Translations under genes and position numbers: made by a program | Notes under the pieces: generated by a model | Database searches by the model: none | What the model was told of the DNA's origin: nothing | The model's input: only the letters and a program-made list of their open reading frames with translations | Assembly (NCBI GenBank): GCA_003647765.1 | Contig: QMNM01000113.1 | Coordinates: 1 to 5,815, forward strand | DNA: 5,815 bases | Direction of reading: 5' to 3' | Source of the DNA: Candidatus Cloacimonadota bacterium | Lineage (GTDB): Bacteria > Cloacimonadota > Cloacimonadia > JGIOTU-2 > B8-G9 | Part shown: piece by piece, positions 1 through 5,815 of the stretch | Numbering within the stretch: position 1 is the first letter of the stretch | Layout of the letters: every line of letters begins with the position of its first letter

Positions 1-216
1 ATCAAAATTGATAATCTGCCAGGTTCTCAGGGACCAAACGAGTATGGAGATTATCAAGGCACAATGTCCAATCATCACAAGGTTTATGAAAATGTAGTTA
101 ATACTCTAAACGGGGAAGATGTTATTGATGTTAATGGTATTGAAGGAATGAAAACAGTTGAAATCATAGAGGCAGCTTATAAATCAATTGATGAAAAAAC
201 CCCTATTTTTTTATGA
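1..216 (+). CDS. Gfo/Idh/MocA family oxidoreductase, C-terminal fragment (5' end outside window)
   Basis: The first base is in frame with 71 codons ending in TGA at 214-216, so only the C-terminal tail of a longer protein (family members usually have about 320-350 residues) is visible. The tail carries SNHHKVYENVVNTLNG (residues 23-38 of the fragment) followed by GIEGMKTVEIIEAAYKSI. This is the closing signature of Gfo/Idh/MocA enzymes, in which the last helix follows a 'EG.K..EII.A.Y.S' pattern. The HH.VYENV..L form resembles WbpB/WlbA-type UDP-N-acetyl-hexosaminuronate 3-dehydrogenases, which feed surface polysaccharide synthesis with NAD(H). That specificity is inference, because the Rossmann domain and the catalytic EKP-type motif lie outside the window. 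A sugar-nucleotide enzyme would fit the glycan genes further downstream. Family assignment is fairly safe; substrate is not. Confidence 0.8.
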   Translation: MKIDNLPGSQGPNEYGDYQGTMSNHHKVYENVVNTLNGEDVIDVNGIEGMKTVEIIEAAYKSIDEKTPIFL

Positions 217-361
217 GACTGCTAATGACTAATATCTTTTTGTGTTTTTCCCGCATTACTAAATGTTCTCTGTGGCGAATTTACGCATTACTCCTTGTGT
301 GTTTTTGTGGCTAATAACAATTTGAATTTTAATTAAACAGAAAAATTACCTAAACAAAAAT
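217..361. other. Gene-free spacer 1, mosaic of short repeated words
   Basis: No coding region or convincing terminator hairpin is seen here. Two word types alternate: TTTTTGTG (237-244), CGCATTACT (252-260), TTCTCTGTGG (266-275), ATTTACGCATTAC (279-291, containing a second CGCATTACT at 284-292), then TTTTTGTG again (302-309) running into TGTGGCTA and ATAACAAT (306-321). The same ordered words recur in the spacer before 3391. The last 40 bases before the ATG at 362 are A/T-rich with no Shine-Dalgarno sequence. Any promoter of the next gene should lie here, but I cannot place one reliably in such AT-rich DNA. Confidence 0.75.
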
Positions 362-805
362 ATGATAAAATTTAATAAGCTTCCTAATAACGTATTACAT
401 AAAATCCCTGAATTGATTAAAAATTTAAATGAGGATAAAACAGTAGTTGCTTTCTATACCTTTAGCAGTGCTGCATTGGGAAATTTGAAACCGCTCAGTG
501 ATTTAGATTTTGCAGTTTTATTTTCTGATAAATTGAGTAAAGAAAGGATTCGCAAGAAATATTTAGATTTAATTGGCATCTTAATGGATATGTTGGAAAC
601 AGATGAATTTGATTTAGTGATTCTTAATACTGCTCCTATGCGTTTTGCATATAATATCTTAAAAAGTGGTAAATTAGAATTTTGTAATAATAAAGATTCT
701 TTGATAGATTTTACTGAACAGACAAATAAGATGTATTTAGATTTTAGATTTTTCCGCGAGCAGTTTGATAGGACTTTTCTCGCAAAATTAGGATATGTCG
801 GATAG
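362..805 (+). CDS. MntA-like minimal nucleotidyltransferase (type VII antitoxin family), apparently orphan
   Basis: The 147-residue protein has the size and fold signature of minimal nucleotidyltransferases of the MntA antitoxin family. These adenylylate a partner HEPN ribonuclease (HepT) and so silence it. The signature loop is seen at residues 34-52: FSSAALG, then SDLDFAV, with metal-binding D47 and D49. The third carboxylate is probably D84 in DEFDLVILN. The segment around residues 98-108 (NILKSGKLEFC) also fits the family. The usual G of the GS loop is a serine here (S35-S36), a departure in the nucleotide-gripping turn. The ATG at 362 has no Shine-Dalgarno, only an A-rich leader. HepT normally follows directly and often overlaps, but the next full gene is an unrelated lipoprotein. 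The protein may be an orphan antitoxin, a remnant, or a nucleotidyltransferase with another target. Confidence 0.8.
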   Translation: MIKFNKLPNNVLHKIPELIKNLNEDKTVVAFYTFSSAALGNLKPLSDLDFAVLFSDKLSKERIRKKYLDLIGILMDMLETDEFDLVILNTAPMRFAYNILKSGKLEFCNNKDSLIDFTEQTNKMYLDFRFFREQFDRTFLAKLGYVG

Positions 806-848
806 TAAAATTAAGGATAGTCTACAAAGATTTAGATATCTTAAATAG
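795..848 (+). pseudogene. Possible vestigial HepT toxin start (17-codon ORF)
   Basis: An ATG at 795 overlaps the end of the nucleotidyltransferase gene by 11 bases, the position expected for a hepT start. It reads MSDSKIKDSLQRFRYLK and then TAG. The K-I-x3-L-x2-F-x-YLK pattern is what a HEPN/DUF86 first helix tends to look like, but nothing recognisable follows, and the R-x4-6-H/Y catalytic region is absent. The match is short and could be chance. The stretch 809-834 also resembles 3212-3237 (20 of 26 bases), which would instead make it spacer DNA. Low confidence. Confidence 0.2.
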
Positions 849-863
849 AATGGAAAAAAGAGA

Positions 864-2360
864 ATGAATATTAACATAAAATGGCTGTTTATTATCAGTA
901 TTGTTTTATTATTATTTTTTACTTCCTGTGATTCTACTAAACCTGATAATAATGGCTCTTTATCAGGAAAAATTTTGTTAGATGGAGAAACTGACCATTC
1001 TGGCATTACTGTCGGAGTTTACAAACTCGCAGAGTTAAATCCTGACATTGTGGAAATAAACAGAAAATATTCTCAAATAGGTGTTATAATAAATCAGCAT
1101 ACAGAGTTTGACCATAGAACAGGAACTTTAGTAAAGCAAACATCTACAAATGCAGATGGGAATTTCAAAATCAGTGATATTCCAAACGGTAAATATAATG
1201 TAGTTGCTATAAAGGACTCTTTTGGTTTTAAGTATATTTATAATGTTAGCATTGCAAAAGGTGATAATTCATTGCCAGAAAGTCATACTCTTTATCGTGA
1301 GACATATATTACATCAGATATAAATGCAGATACAACCTGGTTGGCTGACCATCATTACATCATTGGAGAAGAACATCAAACTATTTCTGTTATTAATAAT
1401 GCTGTACTTACTATTGAACCTGGTGCTGTTGTAAGATTAAACAAGAATGTATCACTTTCTATTGGTAGCGATTGTGAACAAGGAAATCTAACAGCAATAG
1501 GCGAAAATAGTAATATGATTTGGTTCACGAAAAACGATGGAATAACAGAAAATCTAAATGAAATTATTTTAAATGATGATTATCAATGGGATGGAATATA
1601 TTTAACTGAAAATGCTAATGCAGAAGTTGAGTGGTGTAAGTTTGATTATTCTTCTAATGGACTTCAAAACAAGATAGATGGATTTTCTATATCAAATAGT
1701 ATCTTTAATAATTGTATAATTGGATTCCTTAGTTCATCTTCAACACACACTGATTCAACACACACTGATTGTTCTAACTTACTTTGTAGAAATATTGATT
1801 CACCAGCAGAGGGAGGAATATTTTTTGAAATGGTAAATACTGGCACTATTGAAAAGAATATTTTCTATAATTGCTATTATGGATTAAAGGTTAAAGATGG
1901 CTTTAAAGGTGAGATAAAGAATAATTACTTTAAGAATAATAATAATGGTGCTTGGCTAATGAAAGTTACTGTTGAATTTACTCATAACGAATTATACAAT
2001 AATAGTGAATGTGATATAAGAACTTCAGGTGCAACCTCTCCTAAAATTACTTATAATGAGATAAATTCTAATAATGGTATTCTTATAGAGTGTGATGTAG
2101 GTTATCAAGATTCGTCTCCTTTAATTCACAAGAATAATTTCTATAATGAGGATTGGTTTATTTATGTTAAAACTCACAATAGGATTGATATTGATGCAAA
2201 AGAAAACTATTTTGATGGACTGAATAATGTAGAAGATATTAAACAGAAAGTTTATGATAAGGAAGATTATCCAGCAAACCAACAATATGATATCGGAGAT
2301 GTTGATGTCTCTAACTTTCGTACTTACAAATATGATGATGCAGGTATAACAGGTGATTAA
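864..2360 (+). CDS. Surface lipoprotein with regulatory-like beta-sandwich and right-handed parallel beta-helix
   Basis: This 498-residue protein begins with a lipoprotein signal peptide: K6, a hydrophobic core at 7-19, and lipobox FTSC with the acylated cysteine at C22. The +2 residue is Asp, an inner-membrane retention signal in E. coli, though the rule may not hold here. Residues about 33-140 resemble a carboxypeptidase-regulatory-like beta-sandwich (NADGNFKISDIPNGKYNVVA at 96-115). From about 159 comes a pectate-lyase-type beta-helix, opened by AVLTIEPGAVVRL (180-192). Its coils show an I-x2-N-x-F ladder with asparagines at N278, N305, N332, N354, N375, N398, N424 and N448, about 21-27 residues apart. 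No catalytic residues can be named, so binding or adhesion is as likely as polysaccharide cleavage. The start at 864 is supported by GGA at 852-854 and by the signal peptide. The 3' end overlaps the next gene by 8 bases. Confidence 0.8.
   Translation: MNINIKWLFIISIVLLLFFTSCDSTKPDNNGSLSGKILLDGETDHSGITVGVYKLAELNPDIVEINRKYSQIGVIINQHTEFDHRTGTLVKQTSTNADGNFKISDIPNGKYNVVAIKDSFGFKYIYNVSIAKGDNSLPESHTLYRETYITSDINADTTWLADHHYIIGEEHQTISVINNAVLTIEPGAVVRLNKNVSLSIGSDCEQGNLTAIGENSNMIWFTKNDGITENLNEIILNDDYQWDGIYLTENANAEVEWCKFDYSSNGLQNKIDGFSISNSIFNNCIIGFLSSSSTHTDSTHTDCSNLLCRNIDSPAEGGIFFEMVNTGTIEKNIFYNCYYGLKVKDGFKGEIKNNYFKNNNNGAWLMKVTVEFTHNELYNNSECDIRTSGATSPKITYNEINSNNGILIECDVGYQDSSPLIHKNNFYNEDWFIYVKTHNRIDIDAKENYFDGLNNVEDIKQKVYDKEDYPANQQYDIGDVDVSNFRTYKYDDAGITGD
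1740..1769 (+). repeat. Perfect 15-bp in-frame tandem duplication
   Basis: TCAACACACACTGAT occurs twice in direct tandem (1740-1754 and 1755-1769) inside the lipoprotein gene. It is in frame and encodes STHTD twice (residues 293-302). The absence of any difference between the copies suggests a recent slippage event or selection on DNA sequence. It lies between two ladder asparagines of the beta-helix and adds five residues to that coil. Confidence 0.95.
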
Positions 2361-3210
2361 ATACTTTATAAAAGAAATCCGAATTTATCATTGGATAAAA
2401 AATCTTTTACTTTTCGTCCCTCTTATATTTTCCAAATCCTTTTTTGTTATTTCTACTGATATAGATATTATTATTGCGTTTATATGTTTTTCCTTTGCTG
2501 CAAGTGGGATCTATATTTTCAATGATATTTTGGATTTAGAAAGTGATAGACAGCATCCTCAAAAAAGGAATAGACCAATTGCTTCTGGCAAATTACCTAA
2601 AAACATAGCAATTGGCGGAATGATTATACTTTGGATTATTTCGGTGGTAATGTCTTTTCTTTTTGTCAATAGTAAATTCTTCTCAATTGTAGTAATATAT
2701 ATCATAGTAAATATCGTTTATTCAATAATATTAAAGCATATCGTTATCTTAGATATAATCATTGTGGCACTTGGTTATGTGTTGAGGATTTTTGCTGGTT
2801 CCTATGCTATAAGTGTGCCTCTTAGTAACTGGATTTTGATTACTACTATGTTCATATCTTTATTTCTTGCAATTGGAAAAAGGAGATACGAGTTTTTATA
2901 TATTCCAGGTGATAATAAGAAGCACAGGCAGGTATTAGAATGCTATTCTAAAGAACTATTAGACCAGATGATTGCTATTTCTGTCACAGGTACTTTGATG
3001 TCTTATAGTTTGTACACTTTTTTATCCAGTCCTACGCGGAAGTTAATGTGGACAATACCATTTGTTATTTATGGATTATTTCGTTATATGTTTCTTTTGT
3101 ATAATAAGATGGGTGGAGCAAGACCTGAGAGAGAATTATTTACAGATAAGCCCTTAATGATAGATATTGCACTTTGGACAATTGTATCTATTTTAATTAT
3201 TTGGAGGTGA
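2353..3210 (+). CDS. UbiA-family polyprenyl-phosphate phosphoribosyltransferase (DPPR synthase-like)
   Basis: The 285-residue, roughly nine-helix membrane protein matches the UbiA branch containing decaprenyl-phosphate phosphoribosyltransferase. That enzyme moves 5-phosphoribose from PRPP to a polyprenyl phosphate at the cytoplasmic membrane face. It opens with HWIKNLLLFVPLIFS (13-27), as this branch does. The first Asp-rich motif is NDILDLESDRQHPQKRNRP (57-75), followed by IASG. The second region is LDIIIVALGYVLRIFAG (133-149), followed by GKRRYEF (175-181). The C-terminal part has PFVIYGLFRYMFLLY (236-250) and a PERELFTDKPL loop (258-268), which favours DPPR synthase over ubiquinone- or menaquinone-type UbiA. 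Translation starts at GTG 2353 inside the lipoprotein gene, 8 nt after an AGG; no better start precedes HWIKN. The lipid chain length and the final product cannot be read from sequence. Confidence 0.88.
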   Translation: MIKYFIKEIRIYHWIKNLLLFVPLIFSKSFFVISTDIDIIIAFICFSFAASGIYIFNDILDLESDRQHPQKRNRPIASGKLPKNIAIGGMIILWIISVVMSFLFVNSKFFSIVVIYIIVNIVYSIILKHIVILDIIIVALGYVLRIFAGSYAISVPLSNWILITTMFISLFLAIGKRRYEFLYIPGDNKKHRQVLECYSKELLDQMIAISVTGTLMSYSLYTFLSSPTRKLMWTIPFVIYGLFRYMFLLYNKMGGARPERELFTDKPLMIDIALWTIVSILIIWR

Positions 3211-3280
3211 TAATTTAGGGTAGACCACAAAAATTTTTAGTCATAAAGTTACTAAGTTTTAATCCATATAATCTTTTCAA

Positions 3281-3300
3281 TCTTTATTAATCTTTATTAA
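3281..3300 (+). repeat. 10-bp tandem repeat (two copies)
   Basis: TCTTTATTAA is repeated exactly at 3281-3290 and 3291-3300 and is followed by TCTT, the start of a third copy. It lies directly before the CTCTGTG-rich part of spacer 2. Confidence 0.9.
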
Positions 3301-3335
3301 TCTTCTCTGTGCCCTCTGTGTCTCTGTGGTGGTGA

Positions 3336-3363
3336 TTTACGCATTACGCACTACGCATTACGC
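3336..3363 (+). repeat. Heptamer tandem array (four units)
   Basis: Four consecutive 7-base units are read: TTTACGC (3336-3342), ATTACGC (3343-3349), ACTACGC (3350-3356) and ATTACGC (3357-3363). Each ends in TACGC and varies only in its first two bases. The first two units correspond to the single ATTTACGCATTAC block of spacer 1 (279-291), so the array appears expanded here. Confidence 0.9.
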
Positions 3364-3390
3364 TGTATTCTCTGTGGCTATATAACAATA

Positions 3391-3903
3391 ATGATATTTA
3401 CACCTGATTATCAATTTGAAAATATTTTTGAGATTAATCTTGATGAACTTAATGATATTAAAACAATAATCTTTGATTATGATAATACTCTTGCTCCATG
3501 GCATTCGTCTATTGACAAAACCACAAACGACTTTATTGCAAATTTAGCGAATAAGTTTAGGATAGTGATTTTGTCAAATAGTAATTCAAGAAGATTAGAA
3601 AATTCTTTACAAATTCCAAATATAATAATTTATGGGAATTGTCATAAGCCATTTATACATAAAATAAAGAAGATTTTTACACATTTAGATATTGATGCTA
3701 ATAAGTGTATATTTGTTGGAGATAATTTAATAACAGACATATCTGTTGGAAATAGACTTGGTTGTAAAACAGTTTTAGTTAATAAAATTTCTTCAAAAGA
3801 ACATATTTTTACTTATGTATGGAGAATAATGGAAATATTTATTAGGATAGTTTGTAATTTAAAAAATGCTGACAAAGGAAATAAATGCAAAAAAGTATTT
3901 TAA
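3391..3903 (+). CDS. YqeG-type HAD-IIIA family phosphatase
   Basis: This 170-residue soluble protein shows all HAD motifs. Motif I is FDYDNT, with nucleophile D29 and acid/base D31. Motif II is VILSNS, with S62. Motif III is the lysine of HKP (K86). Motif IV is GDNLITD, with D111 and D116. The short cap-less layout and the end ([14 protein letters not shown], then a tail rich in aromatic residues) match the YqeG-like HAD-IIIA group, generally regarded as phosphatases. Placed between a phosphoribosyltransferase and an SDR, a plausible role is removal of the 5-phosphate from polyprenyl-phosphoryl-5-phosphoribose; that is inference from context. The ATG at 3391 lacks a Shine-Dalgarno and sits one base after the repeat words of spacer 2. 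The 3' end overlaps the next gene by 19 bases. Confidence 0.85.
3877..3884 (+). promoter_or_regulatory. Ribosome binding site for the SDR gene, inside the HAD gene
   Basis: AAAGGA at 3874-3879 precedes the ATG at 3885 by 5 nt. This is the clearest Shine-Dalgarno in the window, and it fixes the start of the SDR gene within the end of the HAD gene. Confidence 0.7.
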
Positions 3904-4928
3904 TTACAGGTGGGTCAGGGTTTTTAGGAATAAATTTAGTGAGATACTTACTTCATAAAGATTTTTCTGATATTATAGTTTTGGATATTGCTGATTTTGA
4001 TTATCCTGAAATGGATGAGATAAATTTTATTAAAGGGGATATCAGAGACAAAAAAACTGTTGCTAAATTGATGAAAGATGTTGAACTTGTTGTTCATTGT
4101 GCTGCTGCTTTGCCTTTATATAAAAAAGAAGATATTTTTTCTACTAATGTTAATGGCACAAGAAATTTGTTACAATATGGATATAAGAATAATATAGAAA
4201 GGTTTGTTCACATATCCACAACTGCTGTTTATGGGATTCCAGATCATCATCCGCTTTATGAAACTGACAAACTTGAAGGAGTTGGTCCTTATGGAGAATC
4301 AAAGGTTATGGCAGAGAAAATTTGTCAGGAATATCGTGAGAAAGGAATGTGTATTCCGATTGTTAGGCCAAAGTCCTTTATAGGCCCTGAACGGCTTGGA
4401 GTTTTTGCTCTCTTTTATGACTGGGCAAAGGATGGTAAAAGTTTTCCAATAATTGGAAATGGTAGAAATCGTTATCAACTTCTTGATGTAGAAGATTTGT
4501 GCGAAGCAATCTATCTTTGCTTAACTGAAGGCAAAAAAATTGTAAATGATACATTTAATATAGGTGCAGGAAAGTTCACAACTATGAGAAATGATTATCA
4601 AAGTGTACTTGATTATGCTGGCTTTGGAAAGAAAATAAAGGCAATTCCAGCAAAGCCTGCAATATTGATATTAGAAATTTTAGAATCTCTACATCTATCA
4701 CCACTATATAAATGGGTCTATGAAACTGCTTCAAAAGATTCTTTTGTTTCCATTGAAAAAGCAGAAAGAATTCTTGGGTTTAAACCGAAATACTCTAATA
4801 AAGACGCTCTAGTTAGAAATTATAAATGGTACATTGAAAACTTAGACAGTTTTAAAGAGCGAACTGGTATCTCGCATAGAGTGCCGTGGAAACAGGGAAT
4901 ATTAAAACTGGCAAAATTTTTCTTCTAA
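3885..4928 (+). CDS. Extended-SDR NAD-dependent epimerase/dehydratase
   Basis: The 347-residue protein is a complete extended short-chain dehydrogenase. The dinucleotide-binding loop is TGGSGFLG (8-15). D34 at the end of the second strand favours NAD over NADP. GDIRD (51-55) and HCAA (71-74) follow, then HISTTAVYG (109-117) with the catalytic Ser/Thr, and YGESK with Y136 and K140. RPKSFIGP (161-168) takes the place of the usual RP-x2-YGP. Members oxidise and epimerise or dehydrate nucleotide- or lipid-linked sugars. The C-terminus carries an extra [12 protein letters not shown] tail after the usual fold, which may mark a subfamily. In this operon it could act on the polyprenyl-linked pentose or on a separate sugar nucleotide. 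It is not a DprE2-type classical SDR, which has about 250 residues. The TAA at 4926-4928 shares one base with the next ATG. Confidence 0.87.
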
Positions 4929-5368
4929 TGAGAAAGAAATATCTCATATATATGTTCTTTGCTTTTTGTTCTATTTTAATAAATTTAGGAACGCAATTCA
5001 TAATAAGAATGTTAGTAAAAAATGCCAGATTTAATTCTTTGAAAATTTATAATATTGAATTAGGTTTTTTTATCCAATTGATTTCAGGAACAGCTGCAGG
5101 ATTTATCTTTAAATTTGTTATTGATAAGTTTGTTATATTTAAAAGTAATTATAATGGTATAACACACACTGCAAAACAATTATCTATTTATACCTTTTTT
5201 GCTTTTATTACAACAGCTATATTTTGGGGAACTGAGATATTATTTAAAGTTGCATTTGAATTTCCAAATAATGAAATATTAGGTGGAGGAATAGGGCTTT
5301 TGATTGGTTATACTGCGAAATTCTTTTTAGATAAGAAATGGGTGTTTGGTGAAAAAATTATTGTATGA
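4928..5368 (+). CDS. GtrA-family membrane protein, putative polyprenyl-phosphate-sugar flippase
   Basis: From ATG 4928 this is a 146-residue protein with four hydrophobic segments (about 5-26, 45-65, 84-106, 117-133), the standard GtrA size and topology. The GtrA hallmark 'K.-D-(K/R)-x2-(V/I)F' appears twice: KFVIDKFVIF (62-71) and KFFLDKKWVF (131-140), one after each membrane pair. FWGTEILF (99-106) and GLLIGYTAKF (123-132) also fit. Family members are linked to translocation of polyprenyl-phosphate-linked sugars, for example GtrA in O-antigen glucosylation and Rv3789 near the arabinan genes of mycobacteria. A GTG at 4886 gives a 14-residue longer, partly basic N-terminus, but I prefer 4928 because it forms a TAATG junction with the SDR stop and gives a normal length. 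No Shine-Dalgarno is obvious, so translation is probably coupled. Confidence 0.86.
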   Translation: MRKKYLIYMFFAFCSILINLGTQFIIRMLVKNARFNSLKIYNIELGFFIQLISGTAAGFIFKFVIDKFVIFKSNYNGITHTAKQLSIYTFFAFITTAIFWGTEILFKVAFEFPNNEILGGGIGLLIGYTAKFFLDKKWVFGEKIIV

Positions 5369-5815
5369 AAAGTAAAATACAAAGCAATAGTTTCTCAATT
5401 TTATTGATAGTAGTTATCTTAATTCGTGTAGGAGTATTTCTTACTATCCAACCACAAATAGCTAAAGACACGGGTGGGTATACCAATTTAGCTAATCATA
5501 TTTTGCGGCTAAATTTTAGTGATTATAGTGGTGCAAGAACCCCCGGTTATCCATTGATAATTGCTCTTGCTGATATGAATTTTAAGATTGTAATGATTTT
5601 TCAATTGCTAATGGGGATTATTATATCTATCTCATTATATAAAATAATTCTTATACTTACAAAAAGCAAGTTGCTATCACTATTTTCAGGATTATCATAT
5701 TCTTTGTATTTGCCACAATTGTATAGAGAAACTGTAATTCTTACTGAAACGACAGCTACATTTTTTATAGTTCTATCATTTTTATTTCTTCTTTATTTGA
5801 TGAAAAGCCAGGATG
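5365..5815 (+). CDS. GT-C type membrane glycosyltransferase (ArnT/PMT-like), N-terminal part
   Basis: The reading frame opens with ATG 5365, which overlaps the GtrA stop as ATGA, and runs off the window after 150 codons. The fragment has hydrophobic segments at about 10-28, 76-98 and 124-145. The first periplasmic loop carries KDTGGYTNLANHIL (34-47) with D35, then ARTPGYPLIIAL (57-68). This D-x3-Y-x2-LA plus R-x-PGYP layout is typical of GT39/ArnT-like and related GT-C transferases, where an acidic residue in that loop is catalytic. TETTATFF (127-134) matches the next conserved SE-type helix. Such enzymes transfer a sugar from a polyprenyl-phosphate donor to an acceptor outside the cytoplasm, so it would use the product of the upstream genes. 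Acceptor and sugar are unknown. The full family length is about 400-600 residues. Confidence 0.82.
   Translation, partial: MKSKIQSNSFSILLIVVILIRVGVFLTIQPQIAKDTGGYTNLANHILRLNFSDYSGARTPGYPLIIALADMNFKIVMIFQLLMGIIISISLYKIILILTKSKLLSLFSGLSYSLYLPQLYRETVILTETTATFFIVLSFLFLLYLMKSQD

Follow-up and report, generated by a model that had tools for sequence, protein, structure and literature searches.

A UbiA-linked gene cluster in Candidatus Cloacimonadota probably directs the assembly of a lipid-linked pentofuranose

Described pentofuranose systems and the Cloacimonadota locus

In Citrobacter youngae, polyprenyl-phosphate-ribofuranose is the product of a polyprenyl-phosphate phosphoribosyltransferase (PPPRS) acting with a HAD phosphatase, and it serves a GT-C enzyme as the sugar donor (Kelly et al. 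2024, PMC11127046). The parts of the O1/O2 systems are ORF15 (PPPRS-PRP), ORF14 (flippase), ORF12 (GT136) and ORF13, an epimerase of the short-chain dehydrogenase/reductase (SDR) type; this single SDR decides between ribofuranose and xylofuranose (PMC11127046). Arabinose systems are reported to have DprE1/DprE2, and xylose systems an ORF13 homologue (PMC11127046). Here, we analyzed a 5,815-nucleotide stretch of Candidatus Cloacimonadota bacterium (GCA_003647765.1, contig QMNM01000113.1, positions 1–5,815, forward strand), hereafter the window, which carries genes for a UbiA-type protein, a HAD phosphatase, an SDR, a GtrA protein and a GT-C protein. This operon probably encodes a three-component-type system that adds a pentofuranose outside the cytoplasmic membrane. 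The C. youngae three-component system appears to be its best match.

By predicted function, the two share a UbiA-type PPPRS, a HAD phosphatase, a single extended SDR, a small multi-pass flippase (a candidate in the window) and a GT-C protein (putative in the window). They differ in several parts. The window HAD is a separate YqeG-like protein, whereas that of Citrobacter is fused to UbiA. The flippase candidate is GtrA in the window and ArnE/EmrE-like in Citrobacter; a genome from another family of the same class (G058) has both types. Citrobacter ORF12 is a GT136 enzyme, whereas the window GT-C is PMT-like and is not shown to be GT136. Unlike Citrobacter, the window has a linked beta-helix lipoprotein gene, and its relatives add a PRPP-synthetase homologue (PRPP, 5-phosphoribosyl-1-pyrophosphate). 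With one extended SDR carrying TGxxGxxG and YxxxK, and no DprE1 match found in the window genome (G000) or G058, the window fits the xylose pattern of PMC11127046.

Other known systems are more distant. The mycobacterial decaprenyl-phosphoryl-arabinose (DPA) pathway also has a UbiA-type PRPP enzyme (Rv3806c), a small membrane exporter candidate (Rv3789) and GT-C enzymes using a lipid-linked pentose. It uses DprE1/DprE2, the Rv3807c phosphatase and Emb/Aft, whereas the window has a HAD phosphatase and no DprE1/DprE2. Rv3807c has been described as unrelated to HAD-family phosphatases (PMC11127046). The noeC(N)HOP arabinosylation of Nod factors in Azorhizobium/Rhizobium (PMC5080398) and the D-arabinofuranosylation of pilin in Pseudomonas paraeruginosa (PMC12369383) likewise use a UbiA phosphoribosyltransferase pathway outside Actinobacteria. 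Both are arabinose pathways akin to the mycobacterial one; in the window, a single extended SDR takes the place of DprE1/DprE2. The Escherichia coli arn system (ArnC/ArnE/ArnF/ArnT) shares a polyprenyl-phosphate pentose, flipping by small proteins and GT-C transfer, and a 114-residue protein of G058 is ArnF/ArnE-like; the arn donor is a nucleotide sugar used by ArnC, without UbiA. A preliminary description of the window had proposed such an assembly line outside Actinobacteria. The Azorhizobium (PMC5080398), Pseudomonas (PMC12369383) and, above all, C. youngae O1/O2 (PMC11127046) systems had already established its existence there.

The UbiA protein is of the phosphoribosyltransferase type

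The UbiA gene lies at 2353–3210 on the plus strand, with a GTG start. Its product matched PF01040 (E=6e-26) and scored above the cut-offs of both NCBIfam equivalogs for decaprenyl-phosphate phosphoribosyltransferase, NF008977 (PRK12324; 254 bits vs 234) and NF008978 (218 vs 207). It also matched the PRPP-bound Mycobacterium tuberculosis structure (PDB 8j8j, E=1.1e-37). The roles of the Mg-PRPP site residues of Rv3806c have been described (PMC10994848). Alignment to 8j8j indicated that equivalents of Rv3806c R22, K28, Y70, N73, D77, K87, R90, Y138 and K143 are all present. In the window protein, they correspond to R and K in the first helix, Y, N and D within YIFNDILD, K and R within HPQKRNRP, and Y and K within YSIILK. 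E. coli UbiA, MenA, CyoE and a second UbiA from the same genome all lack the HPxK stretch and the LKH/GKRR context.

In phylogenetic trees, the protein grouped with Rv3806c and other PPPRS, with Shimodaira–Hasegawa-like approximate likelihood ratio test support of 99 in one tree and support of 97/89 in another. E. coli UbiA, MenA, CyoE and the second UbiA (GGGP-synthase-like) were outgroups. Branch order inside the PPPRS group was not resolved. These sequence comparisons place the protein in the DPPRS/PPPRS branch of the UbiA superfamily, as the preliminary description had proposed. The family models, residues and trees ruled out a quinone, heme or geranylgeranylglyceryl phosphate (GGGP) prenyltransferase. 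The paper on the aromatic prenyltransferase Ubi-297 likewise places decaprenyl-phosphate phosphoribosyltransferases in a separate group.

The gene set is clustered again in another family

Downstream of UbiA, on the same strand, are genes for a HAD-IIIA phosphatase of the YqeG/PGP-phosphatase type (3391–3903), an extended NAD-dependent SDR of 347 residues (3885–4928), a GtrA-family small membrane protein (4928–5368, ATG start; a longer form from GTG at 4886 is possible) and a PMT-like GT-C glycosyltransferase, of which the first 150 residues are encoded before the contig end (5365–5815). The last four overlap, as first described, by 19 bp (HAD/SDR), 1 bp (SDR/GtrA) and 4 bp (GtrA/GT-C). UbiA is outside this overlapping run. 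A gap of 180 bp holding a dispersed genomic repeat separates it from the HAD gene, and it overlaps the beta-helix lipoprotein gene upstream by 8 bp. The window is an entire contig (G000:C139) of a 1.97 Mb draft genome in 360 contigs, so neighbors beyond either end are not visible.

The HAD protein matched TIGR01668 (YqeG-like) with 86 bits, just under the cut-off of 89.1, and PF09419 (E=1e-9). Its motifs D29xD31, S62, K86 and GDNLITD are intact and are common to the window and G058. GtrA matched NF037976 (107 bits, cut-off 50). The GT-C fragment has four hydrophobic segments; its matches to PMT (E=0.003) and to PMT_2 (E=0.025) fall short of the curated cut-off.

We surveyed 124 genomes of the class. 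UbiA of the PPPRS type was found in only three and HAD of the window type in three, two of which carry the cluster. The window SDR type was found in two, only alongside UbiA. SDR, HAD and UbiA were all present in the same two genomes, those of the window and G058. In G058, the order on one strand is beta-helix lipoprotein, HAD, PRPP-synthetase homologue, UbiA, ArnF/ArnE-like protein, SDR, GtrA and, in the GT-C position, a multi-pass protein that is itself cut by a contig end. Identities between the two genomes were 45% for UbiA, 37% for HAD, 68% for SDR and 59% for GtrA. The order thus differs from that of the window, and the PRPP-synthetase and flippase-like genes are insertions. The predicted recurrence of the genes in related genomes was borne out by G058, and this, with the UbiA grouping, supports the overall reading of a polyprenyl-phosphate-linked pentofuranose assembly line.

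The PRPP-synthetase homologue of G058 (298 residues, L023:3684–4577) overlaps the UbiA gene. It scored 108 bits against TIGR01251 (cut-off 113), aligned to solved ribose-phosphate pyrophosphokinases and, by eye, retains D-x-H, K-x-R and DDExxxGxT-like motifs. Another genome of the class, G097, has a PRPP-synthetase/UbiA/SMR trio beside polysaccharide genes; its homologue (L027:12885–13790, minus strand) also overlaps UbiA, and the SDR is absent there. This overlap, seen in two relatives, suggests that PRPP is the substrate and, as genomic evidence, independently supports its role as the donor. These divergent homologues possibly provide a dedicated PRPP supply.

The SDR clade is associated with UbiA in bacteria and archaea

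The SDR is extended and GalE-like (PF01370, E=4e-45). Alignment confirmed both TGxxGxxG and YxxxK. It lacks the Asp-Glu seen in RfbB, and a 4,6-dehydratase identity was rejected. Its clade has its own C-terminal HRVPWxQG stretch; R332, W335, Q337, G338, L340, A343 and K344 were kept in all seven aligned members.

Places examined for this clade were the window's class, the WOR-3 group, haloarchaeal plasmids and Actinomycetota. In all of them, clade members (39–68% identical) adjoined UbiA or shared a genome with it. The best matches among plasmid records were on four haloarchaeal plasmids (48–51% identity), at the same loci as the UbiA matches. Three annotated plasmids have the SDR, a DolP-mannosyltransferase-like GT-C, UbiA, a PHP-domain protein and an LPG-synthase-TM protein; on the fourth, unannotated, the SDR gene neighbors UbiA. 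The SDR is adjacent to UbiA in Streptomyces SAT1 and Nonomuraea, and both genes were present in four of four WOR-3 genomes searched. Phosphatase and flippase types differ between the lineages. The SDRs of the window, G058 and WOR-3 formed a clade with support of 98/97. The rule that this SDR implies UbiA covers about a dozen genomes or plasmids, several closely related to one another. UbiA also occurs without this SDR: none of 17 other UbiA loci in genome contigs adjoined the window SDR subfamily. What is new here is an SDR clade associated with PPPRS-type UbiA across bacteria and archaea.

In three WOR-3 genomes (L053:10423–12387, L069:1362–3305 and L070:7296–9260), the SDR gene directly follows a gene whose product looks, by eye, secreted and beta-helix-like. 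A beta-helix lipoprotein is likewise found with the cluster in both the window and G058. In the window, the lipoprotein gene is at 864–2360 on the plus strand (PF13229, E=9e-13; NosD, E=8e-10; lipobox-like ...FFTSC; carboxypeptidase-regulatory-like domain), and a homologue lies directly upstream of the G058 cluster. It is a linked gene, whose product is possibly a surface acceptor or a glycan-interacting protein.

Proposed pathway and its alternatives

The catalytic steps proposed here, like the flippase role of GtrA and the nature of the acceptor, are predictions from sequence. UbiA would join PRPP to polyprenyl phosphate to give polyprenyl-phosphate-ribose-5-phosphate, from which the HAD phosphatase would remove the 5-phosphate. 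Next, the SDR would alter the ribofuranose on its lipid carrier; it would most likely be a single-enzyme epimerase that yields xylofuranose, with arabinofuranose or another derivative a less likely product. Analogy with Citrobacter ORF13 and the close association with UbiA suggest this step. GtrA may flip the lipid-linked sugar outward, and the GT-C enzyme, judged from its gene fragment, may transfer the pentofuranose to a glycan or protein in the periplasm. Among the possible sugars, we estimate by analogy that xylofuranose is the leading candidate, at somewhat below an even chance. Arabinofuranose made by one enzyme comes well behind it and unmodified ribofuranose a little further back; other derivatives make up the rest.

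Several observations weigh against this pathway. Co-transcription of UbiA and HAD is unproven because of the 180-bp gap. The HAD may have another role, for example as a phosphatidylglycerophosphate (PGP) phosphatase, since the third genome carrying it (G034, L072:7967–8428, 38% identical to the window HAD) lacks this UbiA type. GtrA proteins also act in hexose pathways. The SDR is likened to ORF13 by motifs and description, short of shown kinship. In WOR-3, SDR and UbiA are on different contigs, and the nine-member SDR clade including haloarchaea and actinomycetes had support of 89/96 in the careful tree (98 in the quick tree). The absence of DprE1 is not absolute because the window genome is 88.8% complete. 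The GT-C call, weakly identified from a contig-end fragment, is the least secure assignment. Profile comparison gave no signal for an ArnT-type GT-C, a PDB search with the G058 counterpart gave no meaningful match, and the AlphaFold model of that counterpart (predicted local distance difference test score 49) was too poor for structure searching.

The alternative that survives best, still an unlikely one, is that ribofuranose is transferred unmodified and the SDR serves a different residue of that glycan by acting on a nucleotide sugar. Unaltered ribofuranose is what the Citrobacter O1 system transfers (PMC11127046). Nucleotide sugars are the usual substrates of extended SDRs, and TDP-glucose dehydratases are among the solved structures closest to the window SDR. 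However, the SDR clade tracks UbiA in two domains of life, and the protein keeps its own C-terminal stretch without the dehydratase pair.

A mycobacterial-type pathway, with polyprenyl-phosphate-D-arabinofuranose as the product, the SDR acting as DprE2 and DprE1 encoded elsewhere, is less probable still. UbiA, phosphatase, SDR, GtrA and GT-C all fit mycobacterial parts at the family level, and genuine DprE1 and DprE2 homologues neighbor UbiA in L011, Flammeovirgaceae L042 and Kovacikia L045. However, a search of G000 and G058 (89% and 96% complete) with the L011 homologue of the FAD oxidase DprE1 gave no hit at E≤0.001. In BLAST searches, the L011 DprE2-like protein found its L042 and L045 counterparts at 42–47%, and the window SDR was not among the DprE2 matches. 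Relatives of the window SDR matched only the extended SDR type. With no DprE1 found and no detected similarity of the SDR to DprE2, arabinofuranose by the mycobacterial route is disfavored, and the parallel with DprE1/DprE2 drawn in the preliminary description was not upheld.

The least credible reading is a chance assembly, in which a GtrA/GT-C pair for hexoses and a HAD phosphatase of phospholipids happen to lie near an unrelated UbiA. The repeat-bearing gap, the hexose activity of GtrA/GT-C pairs elsewhere and the G034 HAD would fit it. Against it, UbiA, HAD, SDR and GtrA homologues are clustered again in G058 in a different order with inserted genes, and SDR, HAD and UbiA are each rare yet occur together in the same two of 124 genomes.

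Returning to the pentofuranose pathway, we tentatively suggest, at just short of an even chance for the whole, that the SDR is the first member of a family of single-enzyme epimerases acting on polyprenyl-phosphate-pentofuranoses, a family common to bacteria and archaea that replaces DprE1/DprE2 and is marked by C-terminal RxxWxQGxLxxAK. Under this proposal, phosphatases (HAD, PHP and endonuclease/exonuclease/phosphatase) and flippases (GtrA, ArnE/F-like and possibly LPG-synthase-TM) would be interchangeable, haloarchaea would use UbiA-made lipid-linked pentofuranoses, and some relatives of the window would have a PRPP synthetase of their own for the pathway. If so, the route from PRPP to lipid-linked pentofuranoses, which came to light in work on the mycobacterial cell wall, would be a mix-and-match module in bacteria and archaea. 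The SDR clade beside UbiA would be a single sequence marker predicting makers of non-ribose pentofuranoses without DprE1/DprE2. An enzyme that alone takes the place of DprE1/DprE2 would also be useful as a tool and would make a clear test case.

Other UbiA loci and neighboring features

In Lactococcus, a UbiA-HAD-GtrA set lies in a capsule locus. A compact cassette of UbiA, HAD, SMR, SDR, DUF6044 membrane protein and flippase genes was found at 898–6646 of L061 (MT837543.1), deposited as phage and marked 'UNVERIFIED'. Its UbiA grouped with a Prevotella sequence, and the contig may be bacterial DNA.

Aminicenantes G126 (L054:5091–7223) and rhizobial plasmids (L038/L039) have a common pair of SDRs in two matching clades, which suggests a variant with two SDRs, linked to UbiA or SMR genes. 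Related proteins that weakly match the Npun_F2552 family (DUF362-like by eye) adjoin this type of UbiA in two unrelated genomes (L027:10506–11588, minus strand; L006:10834–12006, plus strand).

At the start of the window are the C-terminal end of a Gfo/Idh/MocA oxidoreductase (1–216), cut by the contig start, and a nucleotidyltransferase of the MntA type VII antitoxin family (362–805; model match 71 bits, cut-off 60). No HEPN toxin partner for the latter was seen within the window. The short dispersed repeat in the UbiA-HAD gap, TCTCTGTGTCTCTGTGG, is located at 3313–3329, and related text is found at 252–276 and 3354–3378. With two or fewer mismatches, it has 129 copies in the genome, compared with 5 for the reversed control.

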